A stretch of DNA of 21,676 nucleotides from Myxococcales bacterium (GTDB lineage Bacteria > Desulfobacterota_B > Binatia > UBA1149 > SPBQ01). Position 1 is the first letter of the stretch; the number at the start of each line of letters is the position of its first letter. Below, piece by piece: positions 9,391 to 21,333 of the stretch. The stretch lies in the NCBI GenBank assembly GCA_004525875.1, contig SPBQ01000004.1:1-21676 (forward strand). The letters run 5' to 3'. The notes beneath the pieces are model-generated. The model had not been told where the DNA came from and did not search any database. It worked only from the letters and a program-made list of their open reading frames with translations. The translations under genes were made by a program, and so were the position numbers.

Positions 9391-10485
<1,095 letters not shown>

Positions 10486-10497
10486 CGCGTGTGGTGC

Positions 10498-10523
10498 GCA
10501 GGCGAGTCGTCCTACGACCTGCC
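10498..10523. terminator. Hairpin between convergent gmd and rmlD-like genes
   Basis: GGC/GCC (10501-10503 with 10521-10523) and GTCG/CGAC (10506-10509 with 10515-10518) form one stem around a TCCTA loop, interrupted by one wobble and one mismatch; GCAGG/CCTGC is an alternative outer pairing. It lies centrally in the 46-bp gap and could serve both strands. There is no T-tract on either side. Confidence 0.35.
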
Positions 10524-10531
10524 CGACGGCG

Positions 10532-11413
10532 TCACCGATCGCGAAGCTGAGCCGCGACTCGCTCGAGCCCTTCGTTCAAGCCGCGGAATCGACAGCCGAC
10601 GCGCTCGCACGACTGATCGGCGTCGAGCCCGCCGGCCAGCGGGCGGACGGCGGCCTGCGAGAGCGCGGTGGTCGGCACGCCCTCGATGCCGCCGGGATCC
10701 AGACCGAACGCCGTTGCTGCACGCCGGCCGAGCTCGAGCCGGTTCACGTAGTCGGGTCCCGCCAGATGCACGACGCCGCGCACGTCGCTGTCCAGCAGAC
10801 GGACGATCGCCTCCGAGAGATCCTCGGCCAGCGTAGGACTGCCCCACTGGTCCTCGGGCACCCGCATCCGTTCGCCACGGTTCAAGCTCTTCCACACCGC
10901 CATCACGAAGTTCATGCCGTCGGCCTCGTAGCCGTACAGGTTGCAGGCCCGAACGATCACGTGGTCCTCGACGGTCGTCGCCACGATGCGTTCGGCTTCG
11001 AGCTTGTGGCGGCCGTACTCGTTGAGCGGGCTCGGCGTCTCGGAGAGCGGATGCGGACCTTGGTCACTGCCGAACACGTAGTCAGTGGAGAAGTAGATGT
11101 GACGGGCGCCGAACTCGGCCGCCGCGATCGCGACGTTGCGCGTCCCATCGACGTTCACGGCACGCGAGCGTTCGGGCTCACGTTCGCACAGGTCCACGTG
11201 GGTGAGCGCCGCGGTATGGACCACCACGCGCGGCCGTAGCTCGCCGATCAACGAGCGGCACGCGGCGGCGTCGGTGATGTCGAGTGCGAGCAGCCCCGCC
11301 TTCGCCTTGCTCGAGTACGTTCCGGCCGCCTTCGTACCGAAACGCGCCGCAAGGCGGCCACCGACGAGGCCCGAAGCGCCGACGACCAGGATCTCTGGCG
11401 AGCGCCGCGTCAT
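10532..11413 (-). CDS. RmlD-like NAD(P)-dependent sugar-nucleotide reductase
   Basis: A 293-residue member of the RmlD (dTDP-4-dehydrorhamnose reductase) substrate-binding family. It has the Rossmann loop GASGLVGG (residues 11-18), LDITD, HTAALTHVDLCE, the conserved STDYVFGS and active-site Tyr133/Lys137 in NEYGRHK. The rest follows the family pattern (RACNLYG, WGSPTLAEDL, GVVHLAGPDYVN). Its ATG overlaps the stop of the upstream FAD dehydrogenase by four bases (ATGA), so it is the third cistron of that operon. Candidate substrates are dTDP-4-keto-rhamnose, the GDP-4-keto-6-deoxymannose made by the convergent gmd product, or an unrelated carbonyl compound. RmlA, RmlB and RmlC are absent here, so a dTDP-rhamnose role is not supported by context. 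Confidence 0.88.
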   Translation of the reverse strand: MTRRSPEILVVGASGLVGGRLAARFGTKAAGTYSSKAKAGLLALDITDAAACRSLIGELRPRVVVHTAALTHVDLCEREPERSRAVNVDGTRNVAIAAAEFGARHIYFSTDYVFGSDQGPHPLSETPSPLNEYGRHKLEAERIVATTVEDHVIVRACNLYGYEADGMNFVMAVWKSLNRGERMRVPEDQWGSPTLAEDLSEAIVRLLDSDVRGVVHLAGPDYVNRLELGRRAATAFGLDPGGIEGVPTTALSQAAVRPLAGGLDADQSCERVGCRFRGLNEGLERVAAQLRDR

Positions 11414-15740: not shown

Positions 15741-17420
15741 GTGTACGAACATCCATCGGCATCGGTCCGCAGCCTGATCGGCGGCGTACTCGCGTGTGCC
15801 GCGCTCGTGCTCGCCGCCATCGGCATCGGCGGCGACTTCCCGCTGAGCGACGACTGGTCGTACGCATACGCAGTCCGATCACTGTGCGTCGACGGCGAGC
15901 TACGGATGCTGCCCTGGACGGGCGCGAGCTTGGTACTGCAGGCCTGGTATGGGGCCTTGCTCTGCAAGCTTTTCGGATTCTCGTTCGAGGTCCTGCGGGC
16001 GTCGACGGTCGCAATGGCAACAGCCGGCGCCATCGGCTTTGCCCTCCTGCTGAACGAAGCCGGCATCCGTGGGCGCGTCGCGGCCCTCGCGATCGCCACG
16101 GTCGGACTCTCGCCCCTCTACGTGAACCTCGCGTTCACGTTCATGACCGACGTGCCGTTCACGGTGCTGTGTATCTGGAGCGGATGGCTCTATGTTCGTG
16201 GACTGCGCCGAGGCGAGACCGCTGCGCTGATCGCAGGCGCCGTGGTCTGCAGCGCCGCGCTGCTGATACGCCAGCACGGACTCTTCCTGGCGGCGGCGGC
16301 GATCGGCGCGTCGCTGTGGCCCGGCCCGACCGCCGCGCGGAGCCGCCTACGAACGGCGGCAGCAGCCGGACTGGCGCCGATCCTCGTATTCATCGCTTTT
16401 CACGTCTGGCTATTCGCGATTCACGGTGCCCCGTCGGGCGTCCAGAACAAGGTCGCCGAGGTCGGCCTGTTCAGCGTGGTCGGCGTCGGCAACCTCGCGT
16501 TTCGTGCCGTCGAGTATCTCGGCCTGCTGCTGCTGCCGATTGCGGCCGCGCAGGCCGGCACGGTGTGGCGGGATGCTCCCGGCCGTCTGGCCGCCGTCGG
16601 AACCGTCCTCGGGGCAGCGGCCCTGTTCCTTTACGCTCGCGATGGCGAGCTCATGTTCTATCTACCCTACGTTCTCCATGATCTGGGCCTGGGCGCTCTC
16701 ACGCTTCGCGACACACTTTTCCTTGGTGAGGATCCGCCGCTGCACGTCGGCGTCGGTCTCGGCGTGACGCTCTCGCTCGCGTCGACCGCCGCCGCATCCG
16801 TGCTGGTCACCGCCTACTGGACAGCGATGGATCGGCGGCCCACAGCACCGCACGCTTTCCTGATCTACGCGCTTGCGCTCCTAGTCGCGGGAAGCTTGCT
16901 TCACGTCGCGTTCTATTTCGACCGTTACCTTCTGCCGGCCCTCCCGTTCGCGGTCGCCGCGGCGCTCCTCTGCTTGCCGATTTCACGGGTCGGATCGGGG
17001 TCGTGGCTGGCCGCTGCGCTGCTCGCCTGGTGGGCCGTCGCCGGGACGCACGACTCCCTGGAATGGAACCGCGCACGCTTCGCGGCGATCGCCGCGCTCG
17101 AGCGCGAGGGGTTCGATGCACGCGAGATCGATGGCGGCGTCGAGTACAACGCGTGGCATCTGGCAGACCGGCTCGGCGACTGGCCGACGACCGAGGAGGT
17201 CCGCAGGGGTCAGCCTGCTACACGCAAGAGCTGGTGGTGGGTCGTCGATGATCGCTTCATCGTGAGCTTCCGTCCGCTTCGCGGATACGACGTGCGGGAC
17301 AGCATCGGATATTCACGATGGCTGGTCCCCGGCACGGGCCGGGTTCTCGTTCTCGAACGCGAGACGGTGCCTCCTCGCCCCGGCCCGAGCAACGGCCCCG
17401 TGCCGCTGTCGACCCGCTGA
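15741..17420 (+). CDS. Polytopic GT-C-like glycosyltransferase (GT39/ArnT-like)
   Basis: A 559-residue membrane protein with about 10-12 hydrophobic segments. The first periplasmic loop contains SDDWSYA (Asp37, Asp38), the acidic motif typical of the GT-C fold, and a second DVP motif lies in TFMTDVPFTVLC. Such enzymes transfer a sugar from a polyprenyl-phosphate carrier to lipid, protein or glycan on the outer face of the inner membrane. The GTG at 15741 has GGGAAGGG directly ahead; it starts 29 bp after the permease stop, so read-through is likely. The C-terminal 120 or so residues are a soluble region (WNRARFAAIAALEREGFDAR, then YNAWHLADRL). Donor and acceptor are unknown. A hairpin follows its stop. 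Confidence 0.8.
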   Translation: MYEHPSASVRSLIGGVLACAALVLAAIGIGGDFPLSDDWSYAYAVRSLCVDGELRMLPWTGASLVLQAWYGALLCKLFGFSFEVLRASTVAMATAGAIGFALLLNEAGIRGRVAALAIATVGLSPLYVNLAFTFMTDVPFTVLCIWSGWLYVRGLRRGETAALIAGAVVCSAALLIRQHGLFLAAAAIGASLWPGPTAARSRLRTAAAAGLAPILVFIAFHVWLFAIHGAPSGVQNKVAEVGLFSVVGVGNLAFRAVEYLGLLLLPIAAAQAGTVWRDAPGRLAAVGTVLGAAALFLYARDGELMFYLPYVLHDLGLGALTLRDTLFLGEDPPLHVGVGLGVTLSLASTAAASVLVTAYWTAMDRRPTAPHAFLIYALALLVAGSLLHVAFYFDRYLLPALPFAVAAALLCLPISRVGSGSWLAAALLAWWAVAGTHDSLEWNRARFAAIAALEREGFDAREIDGGVEYNAWHLADRLGDWPTTEEVRRGQPATRKSWWWVVDDRFIVSFRPLRGYDVRDSIGYSRWLVPGTGRVLVLERETVPPRPGPSNGPVPLSTR

Positions 17421-17644: not shown

Positions 17645-19798
17645 GTGAAACCCGTCGCCGACCACCCACGACCGCCGTTCCTGTCGATGGGCCGCATGGA
17701 CCGACTCGACGCGCTGCTCCTCGGCGGGATCGTGCTCGTGTTCCTGGCGACACGCTTTGCCTGGCTCTACTGGGCGCTACCCACCTGCGTCTACTGGGAG
17801 GAGAGCTTCCGCTGGTTGTCGGCTCGCGAAATCCTACACGGTCCGCACAGACCTCTCTTCGACTTCCAGGCCGATCACTATCAGGGCGGGTCGCTGGTCA
17901 TGATCTTCACGAGCGTCCTTCCGTTCCACCTGTTCGGCGAGACGGGCGCGGCGATGAAGATCGCGGCCGCGGTCTACTCGAGCGTCGTTCTCGGCGGCCT
18001 GTACACCTTGGGGAGGACGGGTTTCGGCCGGGCATGCGGTGTCTGCGCGGCGCTCGCCTACGTCGCCGGACCTCCACTCGTGGCGTTCTGGGGATTGGTG
18101 GTCATGGGCAGCCACGGCGAGTCCGTCCTCTTCAGCCTCGCCGAGCTGTTCGTGTTCTTTGGGATACTCTCCGGTCACTGGCGCACACCGGCCGGCTGGT
18201 CCGCATTCGGGTTCGTGGCGGGAGTGGGCCTGTGGTTCTGCTACACCTCGGGGCTGACACTCGTCAGCTGCGGCGTGGCCTGGTTGTTGCTCGAGCGCCG
18301 ACCGCGGGCGAGCGAGATCAGTTCCGCAGTTGCCGGCGGGCTCGTCGGCATGATCCCCTGGTTTATCTACAACGCGACGCACGAGTTCGCCGGTGTGACG
18401 CGAATTCTAGAGGTTTTCGGTCTGGGGGACCCGATCGACGCCTGGGAGTCGAAGAGCATCGTCGAGAAAGCTCCGCAGCTTCTACTCCACGACCTGCCGA
18501 CGAGCCTCCTCCGCCCCTTCGAGAACGCCATCGACGATCGCAGCATGAGCGTTCTCGCCGCCGCGTTCTTCACGCCTCTGATCATTGCGCTGGCATTCTC
18601 CGTCTGCCGCGCCGCGGCAACACTGCGGTCGCGACTGGCAGGCCGTCAACACTCCCCCGGGGGCACGGGCGCGGCGGGTGATTTCGTCTTCGTCGTCCAC
18701 GGTCTGGTCTTCTTGACCGCTCTGCTGGGATCGCGTTTCACCGTGACCGCGGATCAAGGGATCATCAGCTACCGGCTGTTTCTTCAGCCAGCCGTGCTGA
18801 TGCTGCTACCGGCGGCGAACTCCGTGGCGCGCGGATTCGCCGCCGGCTCCAGGTCACGCTCGCTCACGGCGCTCGGATTGTCTGCCTACCTGCTGGCGTC
18901 GTCGACGGCGACCTTCCTCCTGGCCACGCGTGAGCTCCCCGCCCAGGAGCACTTCCAGATCAACAGCGGCCACCTCGTGCGCGGCGTGCTGCTACATCGC
19001 AAGCACGAGCAGGATGTGGAGCGTGCCGCCGTCGCCGCGCGCGACAGCGGCGTTGCGAGCTGGACGTACCACGCACTCAGGGGCATCGGCTGGGGACTCG
19101 CGTTCCGGTACGAGAAGGATGGAGATTTCGCGACGATGCGCAGCCACATCGAGTCGCTACCGCTCGTCGACCGCGTCCCGGTGGTGCAGGGGGCGATCTG
19201 GTCAACGGGGCAACGTATCGGCCAGGTGAGGGACGTCATCGATTCGGGCCCTGGAGGTGAGCGCGAGCGGCATCTGCTCGAGAGACTCGAGCGTCTCGAT
19301 GATCTGCTGGAGCAAGAGCTCGTCAGCGTACGCCTGCGGCTGCGAGCCGAGACGTCCAACATGGCGCTGGCGGCGGTGACATCGCAGAGCAGCTCCGCGT
19401 TCGACATGGGCGCGGATCGCGCCGTCGATGGAATCACGGATGGCGATCACCATGCCGCGGAGTCGGTCTCACATACGGAGAAGGATCACCAGGCATGGTG
19501 GCAAGTCGATCTGGGCGCGGTGGTGGATATCGATCGCATCGAGATCTTCAACCGTACCGACTGTTGCAGCGATCGTCTGCGCGACTATTACGTGTTCATT
19601 TCCTCGACGCCCTTCGAGCATCGAACCGTCGAGGAGACTGTGCGGGACCCGAACGTGTTCGCTTCCTTCCAGCAAGAACAGGCGCAAAGCCCGACCACGG
19701 TAGCGATCGGGCGCAGGGGACGATTCGTTCGCATCCAGCTCACGGCGGAGGAACAGTTCCTGGCGCTGGCCGAGGTACGCGTCATCCCCGCGCGGTAG
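17645..19798 (+). CDS. Polytopic GT-C-like membrane protein with C-terminal F-type (fucose-binding) lectin domain
   Basis: A 717-residue protein in three parts. Residues about 20-430 are polytopic with a GT39-like first loop, YWEESFRW (Glu52, Glu53), and several membrane helices, the last near 405-428. Residues 430-570 are soluble, ending in a Leu/Arg/Glu-rich stretch that may be coiled coil. Residues 571-717 are a discoidin-like jelly-roll domain: AVDG, WWQVDLG and NRTDCCSDR. The F-type lectin motif HX26RXDX4(R/K) is matched exactly by His610, Arg637, Asp639 and Arg644. The DCC pair is also typical of that family. The GTG at 17645 is the longest start; ATGs at 17687 and 17696 are possible. 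Topology would place the lectin in the periplasm. Glycosyl transfer is inferred from the fold pattern, with fucose or related sugar binding by the tail. Confidence 0.82.
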   Translation: MKPVADHPRPPFLSMGRMDRLDALLLGGIVLVFLATRFAWLYWALPTCVYWEESFRWLSAREILHGPHRPLFDFQADHYQGGSLVMIFTSVLPFHLFGETGAAMKIAAAVYSSVVLGGLYTLGRTGFGRACGVCAALAYVAGPPLVAFWGLVVMGSHGESVLFSLAELFVFFGILSGHWRTPAGWSAFGFVAGVGLWFCYTSGLTLVSCGVAWLLLERRPRASEISSAVAGGLVGMIPWFIYNATHEFAGVTRILEVFGLGDPIDAWESKSIVEKAPQLLLHDLPTSLLRPFENAIDDRSMSVLAAAFFTPLIIALAFSVCRAAATLRSRLAGRQHSPGGTGAAGDFVFVVHGLVFLTALLGSRFTVTADQGIISYRLFLQPAVLMLLPAANSVARGFAAGSRSRSLTALGLSAYLLASSTATFLLATRELPAQEHFQINSGHLVRGVLLHRKHEQDVERAAVAARDSGVASWTYHALRGIGWGLAFRYEKDGDFATMRSHIESLPLVDRVPVVQGAIWSTGQRIGQVRDVIDSGPGGERERHLLERLERLDDLLEQELVSVRLRLRAETSNMALAAVTSQSSSAFDMGADRAVDGITDGDHHAAESVSHTEKDHQAWWQVDLGAVVDIDRIEIFNRTDCCSDRLRDYYVFISSTPFEHRTVEETVRDPNVFASFQQEQAQSPTTVAIGRRGRFVRIQLTAEEQFLALAEVRVIPAR

Positions 19799-19852: not shown

Positions 19853-20014
19853 ATGGCCACACCCCTCGTCGCTCTGTCGCACGGAAAGGCCCGCCCACAG
19901 GTGGACCCAGCAACCGCAGGCCTCTTCTTCCGTCTGGCGGCCGCGATCTTGCTCACGATCACTTCGATCGGATGCAAAGATTCCCACCGCCGCCGGCTCC
20001 GAACATCGTTCTGA
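19853..20014 (+). pseudogene. Lipoprotein signal peptide, out of frame with the following sulfatase-fold gene
   Basis: This frame encodes a typical lipoprotein leader: GLFFRLAAAILLTITSIGCKDS, with Cys at 19973-19975 after a hydrophobic core, then runs out at a TGA (20012-20014). One extra C in the CCC at 19983-19985 would join it to the sulfatase-fold frame as CKDSPPPPAPNIVL, exactly the layout of lipid-anchored members. Possible starts are ATG 19853 or GTG 19901; the latter has GGAAAGG 11 bases upstream and gives a 24-residue signal. The cause is either a real mutation or a sequencing/assembly indel. Confidence 0.65.
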
Positions 20015-21333
20015 TCTTGATCGATACACTCCGGGCCGACCACCTCGGCGCGTACGGGTATCCGCGGCCGACCTCGCCGATCATCGACGGGCTCGCCGAC
20101 CGCGGGGTCGTGTTCACGAACGCGACGTCGAACAGCTCGTTGACTCGGCCCTCGGTGGCGTCGATTTTTACTTCACGCCTTCCCTCGGAACACGGCGCAT
20201 ACTCTTTCCGACGCTCGATCGCTCCGGGGCTTCCGACGCTCGCAGAGTGCCTGCACAACGCCGGCTACAAGACGTTCGGCGTGTCGGGAAACTTCGTCCA
20301 TATCAACGAGCCGTTCGGATTCGGCCGCGGCTTCGATCGCTGGCGCGAAGTTTCGATCGAGCTCGCAGACGGCGACGACGACGAGATGTGGCCCAACACT
20401 GGACCGAAGGGCGGCCAGCTGAGCGATCCGCCGGCAACCCTCGTCAACAAAGTCGCGCTCGGCTTCCTATCTCCGAGCGACGTCACGCCGTTCTTCCTGT
20501 ACCTGCATTACATGGAACCCCATTCGCCTTACGACGCGCCGGAACCCATCCGCTCTTCGTTCGTATCGGACCCGGCCATGCATGCCGGCCGTCCCGAAGC
20601 CTCGTCGCGGTACCTGATCGATCTGGCGCGCACGCGCCCGGCAGTGGATCCAGCGGAGCGACAGCGCCTGATCGACCTCTACGACGCAGAGATCGCAACG
20701 GTAGACCGGGCGATCGGTGGGCTACTCGATGCGCTCAAACAACGTGGCTTGGATAAGAACACGGTCGTGGCCGTCGTATCGGACCACGGCGAGGAGTTCG
20801 GAGAGCACGGAGGCTGGGTGCACGGGGGCACGCTGCACCGTGAATCGGTGTGGGTCCCCTTCATCGTGCACGACGCGCGCAGACCGACCCGGGGAATCCT
20901 TCGTGACGAGCCCGTCGATCTGCTGGACGTGGCGACGACGCTGCTATCGCTTGCCGGTGTCGACGCCTGTGAGGGAATGCGCGGGCGGCCGTTGCTGAGC
21001 CCCGACGGGAGTGCAGAGCGTGAGATCATCGCCGAGCTCCATCTCGAAGACCGACCCGAGGACGCGACCATCCCCCGCCTCCATCGGCTCGCGCTGATGA
21101 GCTGGCCCTGGCGAGTCATACTCGGCCAGGACGAGACGCGCAGCTTCTTCCGGGTCGACCGAGATCCAGGCGAGAGCGATCCCCTACCACCCGCGACGTC
21201 GGAGCTCGAAGATCTCGGGGCGTCGGCGGAAAGAGCCCGCAAGCGGCTGGACACGATGGCATCGAGATCCCGTGCCGGCAGCATCGACGCGCGGACGCAG
21301 GAAGGACTGCGCACGCTCGGCTACACTGACTGA
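19972..21333 (+). CDS. Sulfatase-superfamily (alkaline phosphatase fold) enzyme with Thr at the nucleophile position
   Basis: A 453-residue reading from an ATG whose upstream bases show no ribosome site; the true N-terminus is probably the lipoprotein leader in the other frame just upstream. The fold is clear: NIVLILIDTLRADHLGAYGY (Asp18 a metal ligand), SSLTRPSVASIFTSR, LYLHYMEPHSPY, and SDHGEEFGEHGGWVHGG (Asp271, His272, His284). Where formylglycine sulfatases have CxPSR, this has TRPSV, so Thr58 aligns with the modified Cys. It is therefore unlikely to be a classical sulfatase and more like the Thr-using phosphoryl-transfer branch of the superfamily (phosphodiesterase, or phosphoethanolamine/phosphoglycerol transfer). 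It follows the GT-C/lectin gene and overlaps the stop of the convergent methyltransferase by 13 bases. The substrate is unknown. Confidence 0.85.
   Translation: MQRFPPPPAPNIVLILIDTLRADHLGAYGYPRPTSPIIDGLADRGVVFTNATSNSSLTRPSVASIFTSRLPSEHGAYSFRRSIAPGLPTLAECLHNAGYKTFGVSGNFVHINEPFGFGRGFDRWREVSIELADGDDDEMWPNTGPKGGQLSDPPATLVNKVALGFLSPSDVTPFFLYLHYMEPHSPYDAPEPIRSSFVSDPAMHAGRPEASSRYLIDLARTRPAVDPAERQRLIDLYDAEIATVDRAIGGLLDALKQRGLDKNTVVAVVSDHGEEFGEHGGWVHGGTLHRESVWVPFIVHDARRPTRGILRDEPVDLLDVATTLLSLAGVDACEGMRGRPLLSPDGSAEREIIAELHLEDRPEDATIPRLHRLALMSWPWRVILGQDETRSFFRVDRDPGESDPLPPATSELEDLGASAERARKRLDTMASRSRAGSIDARTQEGLRTLGYTD

Follow-up and report, generated by a model that had tools for sequence, protein, structure and literature searches.

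F-type lectins (FTLs) are known as free lectins, as toxin-targeting domains and as add-ons of degrading enzymes. Lectin-like modules on GT-C enzymes are already known, and an F-type lectin on such an enzyme is an unusual combination. An architecture of this kind, a putative GT-C membrane enzyme with an F-type lectin tail, is supported by sequence and predicted models for one protein encoded in the window, by which we mean the whole stretch of 21,676 nucleotides that was analyzed.

The closest parallel is EmbC of Mycobacterium tuberculosis, for which the available text describes a C-terminal domain with a lectin-like module that binds acceptor analogues, and reports that single substitutions at two sugar sites impaired this binding and inhibited LAM extension (PMC3044687). 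The window protein would resemble EmbC in being a GT-C membrane enzyme with an extracytoplasmic C-terminal β-sandwich carbohydrate-binding module (CBM), for which acceptor recognition was both proposed and tested in EmbC according to the same text. It differs in that EmbC belongs to another GT-C family, carries another type of CBM (not an F-type lectin by the fold described there) and uses an arabinan acceptor, whereas the window protein is known by sequence and models alone. The mycobacterial GT-C arabinofuranosyltransferase AftD is likewise predicted to have a CBM, placed at 619-740 in the accessible text, but that module is not terminal, as further TM helices come after the loop region, and the family and acceptor also differ from ours (PMC6034362). 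We suggest that the window protein may work like these enzymes, not that it belongs to their families; no Emb or AftD Pfam family is among the Pfam matches, and the likeness is by fold match only.

The lectin domain of lectinolysin (3lei and 3lek), SpX of S. pneumoniae (2j1t and 2j22), FBP32 (3cqo) and eel AAA (1k12) share with the window tail the fold and the His and Arg residues of the motif. Their lectin modules belong to soluble or secreted proteins, and we know of none among these four that is fused to a membrane glycosyltransferase. ArnT (GT83), PMT (GT39), OST and ALG12 have the GT-C fold in common with the body, at about 9-15% identity in structural alignments; PMT carries a lumenal MIR domain in place of a lectin, and ArnT is not known to have one. 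Among the papers listed in literature searches (titles and abstract starts, 10 to 20 of 13 to 70,456 matches), none concerned a membrane glycosyltransferase bearing an F-type lectin, which is a weak absence, and the combination of "F-type lectin domain" with "polytopic" gave no literature matches. The combination may already have been described by Bishnoi et al., whose survey of FTLs is known here as cited in PMC5712786.

Authenticity of the fusion

The fusion is encoded by an open frame of 717 amino acids at 17645-19798 (plus strand), counted from a GTG start; the membrane body and the lectin tail indeed lie in this one frame, as a sequence-only reading had claimed, and the same fusion is found in P0001, a 703-aa protein 99% identical to that of the window. 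An in-frame ATG exists at 17687, 14 codons downstream of the GTG, and because the near-identical P0001 starts at the equivalent ATG, position 17687 is more likely to be the start than 17645. P0001 represents a cluster of three member sequences and lies on a separate JGI contig (11,966 bases). The two proteins differ at seven scattered residues, six of 545 in the body and one of 158 in the tail, with the motif residues untouched, a distribution that does not indicate decay of the tail.

That two unrelated genes were joined by an assembly artefact is scarcely conceivable: fusion relatives are confined to this one 99% identical cluster among the matches listed, but P0001 shares the junction on its own contig despite the seven scattered differences, and GC3 is similar on either side (body 0.83, tail 0.77). 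A chimera was rejected on the shared junction and the similar GC3.

The C-terminal lectin domain

The tail (19322..19798, plus strand; residues 560-717 in GTG-start numbering, stop included) is confirmed as an F-type lectin domain by sequence and predicted shape. A profile search, proposed earlier as a check, matched Pfam F5_F8_type_C_2 well above its cut-off (60.5 against 27.8 bits). In PDB sequence searches, all six matches of the whole protein were F-type lectins, as were the best six of nine for the tail alone. The fucose motif HX26RXDX4R lies at 19472..19576 on the plus strand, comprises His610, Arg637, Asp639, Cys640-Cys641 and Arg644, and was placed by alignment to solved F-type lectins, in which the three basic residues have their equivalents. 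All landmarks named by the sequence-only reading are exact, namely His610, Arg637, Asp639, Arg644, AVDG (593), WWQVDLG (618) and RTDCC (637). The spacing agrees with the eel lectin numbering (His52, Arg79 and Arg86) in the available text of an FTL review, which gives 26 residues between His and Arg although the motif is printed there as HX24 (PMC5712786). The exact pattern HX26RXDX4(R/K) occurs once in a six-frame translation of the window and in nine of 2000 shuffles of the protein; the motif alone is thus uncommon by chance yet short of proof, and its significance rests on homology.

The contiguous Cys pair at RTDCC (637-641) is present in the tail. The accessible part of the same review states that the vicinal pair packs on the fucose ring, that it is absent from some family members, and that AAA and the first domain of FBP32 have it, as does the window tail (PMC5712786). 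Of the cation motif h2DGx, AVDG is present, but the next residue is Ile rather than N/D/S; x is given there as a small hydrophilic residue, and the motifs are said to be kept in most FTL sequences (PMC5712786).

The tail was unusable in the full-length predicted model (pLDDT <50 over 567-703), presumably because only P0001 covers it, and it was therefore folded alone. The resulting model has the predicted F-type lectin (jellyroll) fold and fits F-type lectins better than any discoidin or CBM32 fold among the matches listed. The discoidin alternative, which the sequence-only reading had raised, was rejected on this comparison. Its other concern, loss of the motif in close orthologues, was allayed insofar as the sole close orthologue, P0001, keeps the motif, but the check is weakly applicable as the next relatives (≤47% identity) are without the whole domain.

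It is quite unlikely, in our estimate, that the tail retains the lectin fold as a structural or oligomerization domain whose sugar binding has been lost or changed. Some FTLs have lost the triad according to the available text (PMC5712786), the final residue of the cation motif is atypical, and 112 of the 113 listed relatives of the body do without the lectin; against this, the triad, the Asp and the vicinal Cys pair are all retained, in P0001 too. By inference, the ligand of the tail would be a fucosylated or 6-deoxy glycan.

The predicted GT-C membrane body

The body (17687..19321, plus strand; residues 15-559 of the GTG-start frame) consists of a polytopic part and a conserved helical region. 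It contains an invariant Glu (residue 38 in ATG-start numbering, which is used for the body below) soon after the first helix, and the motifs QAD-YQGG and GSH-E. The earlier description of a GT39-like polytopic body is borne out by the match to Pfam PMT_2 (28.5 bits against a cut-off of 26.1) and by the GT-C fold of the predicted model, whose structural matches include ArnT, PMT, OST and ALG12. The seven Foldseek matches at E≤0.001 have modest TM-scores (0.33-0.39 by query, 0.27-0.55 by target), and a PDB sequence search with two body alignments gave no meaningful match. In an alignment of 26 bodies (A1), 25 members match PMT_2 at E≤0.01; some relatives with tails score under the PMT_2 cut-off. 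Glu38, the acidic residue of the first extracytoplasmic loop, is conserved in 26 of 26, as are Asp63, His143 and Glu145; residue 39 is Glu in 24 and Asp in two. By analogy with ArnT and PMT, we take Glu38 to be the catalytic position.

The GT-C assignment comes from the predicted fold together with the weak Pfam match (28.5 bits, cut-off 26.1), which leaves some room for a body inactive as a glycosyltransferase. The protein would then amount to a lectin anchored in the membrane to capture fucosylated material. The polar residues invariant in all 26 aligned proteins, and the glycan-building neighbors of related bodies in the loci L006 and L009 described below, make this very improbable, and the enzyme is probably active.

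Tails at one attachment point

A search for body homologues, in which the best 7996 candidates by shared words were scored, listed 113 homologous bodies. The lectin tail is present in one of them, P0001, and no other body homologue among the 113 has the same domain order. Since 112 of the 113 are without it, the lectin is not needed for the basic reaction. Most bodies (87 of 113) end within 40 residues of the body/tail attachment point, and 26 have longer tails. Sixteen of these are sulfatase-fold domains (P0004, P0012, P0089-P0092, P0094-P0099, P0101, P0106, P0108 and P0109) and five are cytochrome c-like (P0047, P0058, P0061, P0063 and P0064). The remainder comprise P0001, two others without assignment (P0022 and P0056, the latter with a CBM-like match below cut-off), P0005, whose tail appears by eye to repeat the helical region, and P0110, which has just a fragment of a sulfatase match. 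The five cytochrome c-like tails form one clade and all contain CXXCH; P0047 alone scores above the cut-off of a Pfam cytochrome family (24.3 bits, cut-off 21.3), and the other four match such families below cut-off. A redox protein is an odd companion for the body of a GT-C-like membrane enzyme.

In a tree of 113 rows (112 of the 113 homologues plus the window), the lectin, the cytochrome and the P0022/P0056 tail each require one change and the sulfatase tail requires four, of which starred branches force three. The window protein and P0001 form a pair on a long branch (0.8), and the tree contains no close relative of theirs.

Cytochromes of the c type receive their heme outside the cytoplasm, and both cytochrome c-like and sulfatase-fold domains are normally extracytoplasmic. 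Because the lectin shares its attachment point with these two kinds of tail, it probably lies in the periplasm as well. The sequence-only reading had placed a lectin tail on a glycosyltransferase in that compartment; the location can now be argued from the tails of relatives at the same place, though it is still reached by inference.

Genome surveys and a second candidate

Genome searches scored at most nine body candidates per genome in a class of 148 genomes, and at most three in a second group of 377, in the results shown. The body was found in at least 15 of the 148 genomes (E≤1e-20), with one full-length match in each of five, split matches to two tandem genes in G008, and partial or distant matches in nine, and in at least seven of the 377 (E≤1e-60). 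The lectin was found in six of 148 (E≤1e-6) and 11 of 377 (E≤1e-10). One genome, G107, has both at those thresholds, on different contigs, and no lectin match occurs inside 36 body loci, some of them overlapping. The ORFs around 22 lectin loci have 0-2 hydrophobic segments by simple Kyte-Doolittle counts, the measure used throughout; 13 of the 22 run past the fetched stretch, so that their N-terminal parts are partly unseen.

Among FTL relatives of 394-1255 aa, 371 were found, and the best 120 of these comprise P0001 and 119 others, 118 of which have 0-2 hydrophobic segments. The exception, P0198, an 891-aa JGI protein with seven, has a polytopic body, then a soluble part and then two F-type lectins, both of which contain the motif. 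The other 251 relatives may hold more cases because single-FTL fusions rank low. The body family of P0198 has at least 43 members including itself (best 7997 candidates scored), and only P0198 has lectins among those listed; 11 other members have tails of 223-232 residues, with FG-GAP-like matches below cut-off in five of six scanned. P0198 and the window protein thus share a polytopic body with C-terminal F-type lectin(s), but P0198 has two lectins and a body of another family, the GT-C nature of which is putative. No relation between the two bodies was detectable by BLASTP, and a profile comparison of the P0198 family with the window body was not significant (hhalign probability 6%, E 0.0063). 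Matches of the P0198 family to PMT_2 or PMT are only weak, PMT_2 appearing in two of 24 aligned members. If P0198 is a GT-C enzyme, the GT-C plus lectin architecture would have arisen twice.

Gene neighborhood and related loci

A GDP-mannose 4,6-dehydratase is encoded at 9451..10485 on the plus strand (NCBIfam gmd, 434.3 bits against a cut-off of 415; PDB 1rpn, E 6e-125), and might be a source of 6-deoxyhexose 7 kb from the lectin gene. It faces a reductase gene on the minus strand (10532..11413), the pair spanning 9451-11413; the reductase is RmlD-like, at 197.3 bits below the rmlD cut-off of 224.05, with 3sc6 as its best PDB match. No GDP-fucose synthase was recognized in the window. The dehydratase was rejected as proof of fucose because the adjoining reductase resembles RmlD rather than a GDP-fucose synthase, and because five genes, that reductase included, lie between the dehydratase and the lectin gene. 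D-rhamnose, another product of the dehydratase route, is without an axial 4-OH.

Upstream of the fusion, at 15741..17420 on the plus strand, lies a second PMT_2-family GT-like membrane protein (31.1 bits), with a 50% identical match in L006. A sulfatase-fold gene (Pfam Sulfatase, 186.6 bits, query 19945-21330) with Thr at the nucleophile position (TRPSV) follows the fusion downstream at 19853..21333, also on the plus strand. The DNA of 19853-20015, read directly, encodes a lipoprotein-like signal ending in ITSIGC, whose frame is not that of the sulfatase-fold body behind it; the body may begin at an ATG of its own and have no signal, or this sequence may contain a break in the frame. Thr replaces the sulfatase Cys in 16 of 16 fused domains with a readable motif, P0110 being unreadable, and in 20 of 21 readable rows among 23 sulfatase-fold rows from the loci (L013 repeats L006), with Cys in one. 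The nearest solved structures to the sulfatase-fold protein by sequence are mostly annotated sulfatases. Enzymes of this fold with Thr are usually phospho-transferases or phosphodiesterases, not sulfatases. A GT-C body fused to or adjoining a Thr-type sulfatase-fold enzyme is a recurrent pair, which may equip a single glycan with both a sugar and a phospho-group; a literature search on GT-C/sulfatase fusions listed none.

The bodies of L001 and L010 are 46% and 52% identical to that of the window (L010 over residues 4-326 only), and in both loci an adjacent gene on the opposite strand encodes the nearest relative seen of the sulfatase-fold protein (47% and 55%, the latter over residues 7-187 only). 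The L006 genome has the closest citrate synthase (81%) of nine genomes searched. L006 has a body without a lectin, relatives of the LarA-like, FAD-oxidase, permease and upstream GT genes of the window, and, around the body gene, five sulfatase-fold genes, a GT2, an FkbM methyltransferase and an acyltransferase-3; it looks like a locus for building and decorating a glycan, and the nearby GT2 gene is suggestive of a polyprenyl-phosphate sugar donor for the GT-C enzyme. In L009 (10001-13470, from G008), the tandem body genes lie near an RmlD-like reductase (44% identical to that of the window), a methyltransferase and an acyltransferase-3.

Discussion

On balance we lean toward the view that the window protein is an inner-membrane GT-C glycosyltransferase whose F-type lectin tail is an acceptor-holding module for an axial-4-OH residue. 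The body would take a sugar from a polyprenyl-phosphate carrier at the periplasmic face and pass it to a glycan, and the tail would grip such a residue (L-fucose or a sugar resembling it) in the glycan under modification, which would keep the acceptor near the active site. Sugar binding by the tail, the identity of the ligand and the acceptor role are what we would expect of such a module. This view is supported by the folds of body and tail, the conserved polar residues, the undecayed tail, the extracytoplasmic tails of relatives, the glycan-related genes of L006 and the EmbC precedent; the Ile in the cation motif, the lack of a recognized GDP-fucose synthase in the window, the possibility that the dehydratase route leads to D-rhamnose, the modest TM-scores and the 112 of 113 listed bodies without a lectin count against it.

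The lectin might instead bind the finished product or the surface polysaccharide of the cell, and so place the enzyme, or a complex with the neighboring sulfatase-fold protein, in the envelope. That protein is encoded next door and fused in relatives, and FTLs are joined to other enzymes, e.g., α-L-fucosidases and metallopeptidases, in Pfam and in the accessible text of the review (PMC5712786); we nevertheless consider this role unlikely because a GT-C enzyme already resides in the very membrane at which its acceptor is produced.

If the acceptor-holding role is generalized, environmental bacteria may have repeatedly put F-type lectins on extracytoplasmic GT-C-type enzymes as acceptor readers, in the window protein and independently in P0198, within a wider family that swaps periplasmic tails (phospho/sulfatase-fold enzyme, cytochrome c or lectin) at one fixed place. 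This is a tentative and rather doubtful proposal. If true, the lectin would recognize a fucose-like sugar in the envelope of the cell that makes it, and a domain known for binding foreign or host glycans would here be directed at self. An F-type lectin on a sugar-adding membrane enzyme suggests that the module may read acceptors during envelope building. Its 150-residue soluble domain would provide an easily expressed handle on the substrate of an apparently uncharacterized GT-C family, and what this family builds would become directly testable by glycan array.
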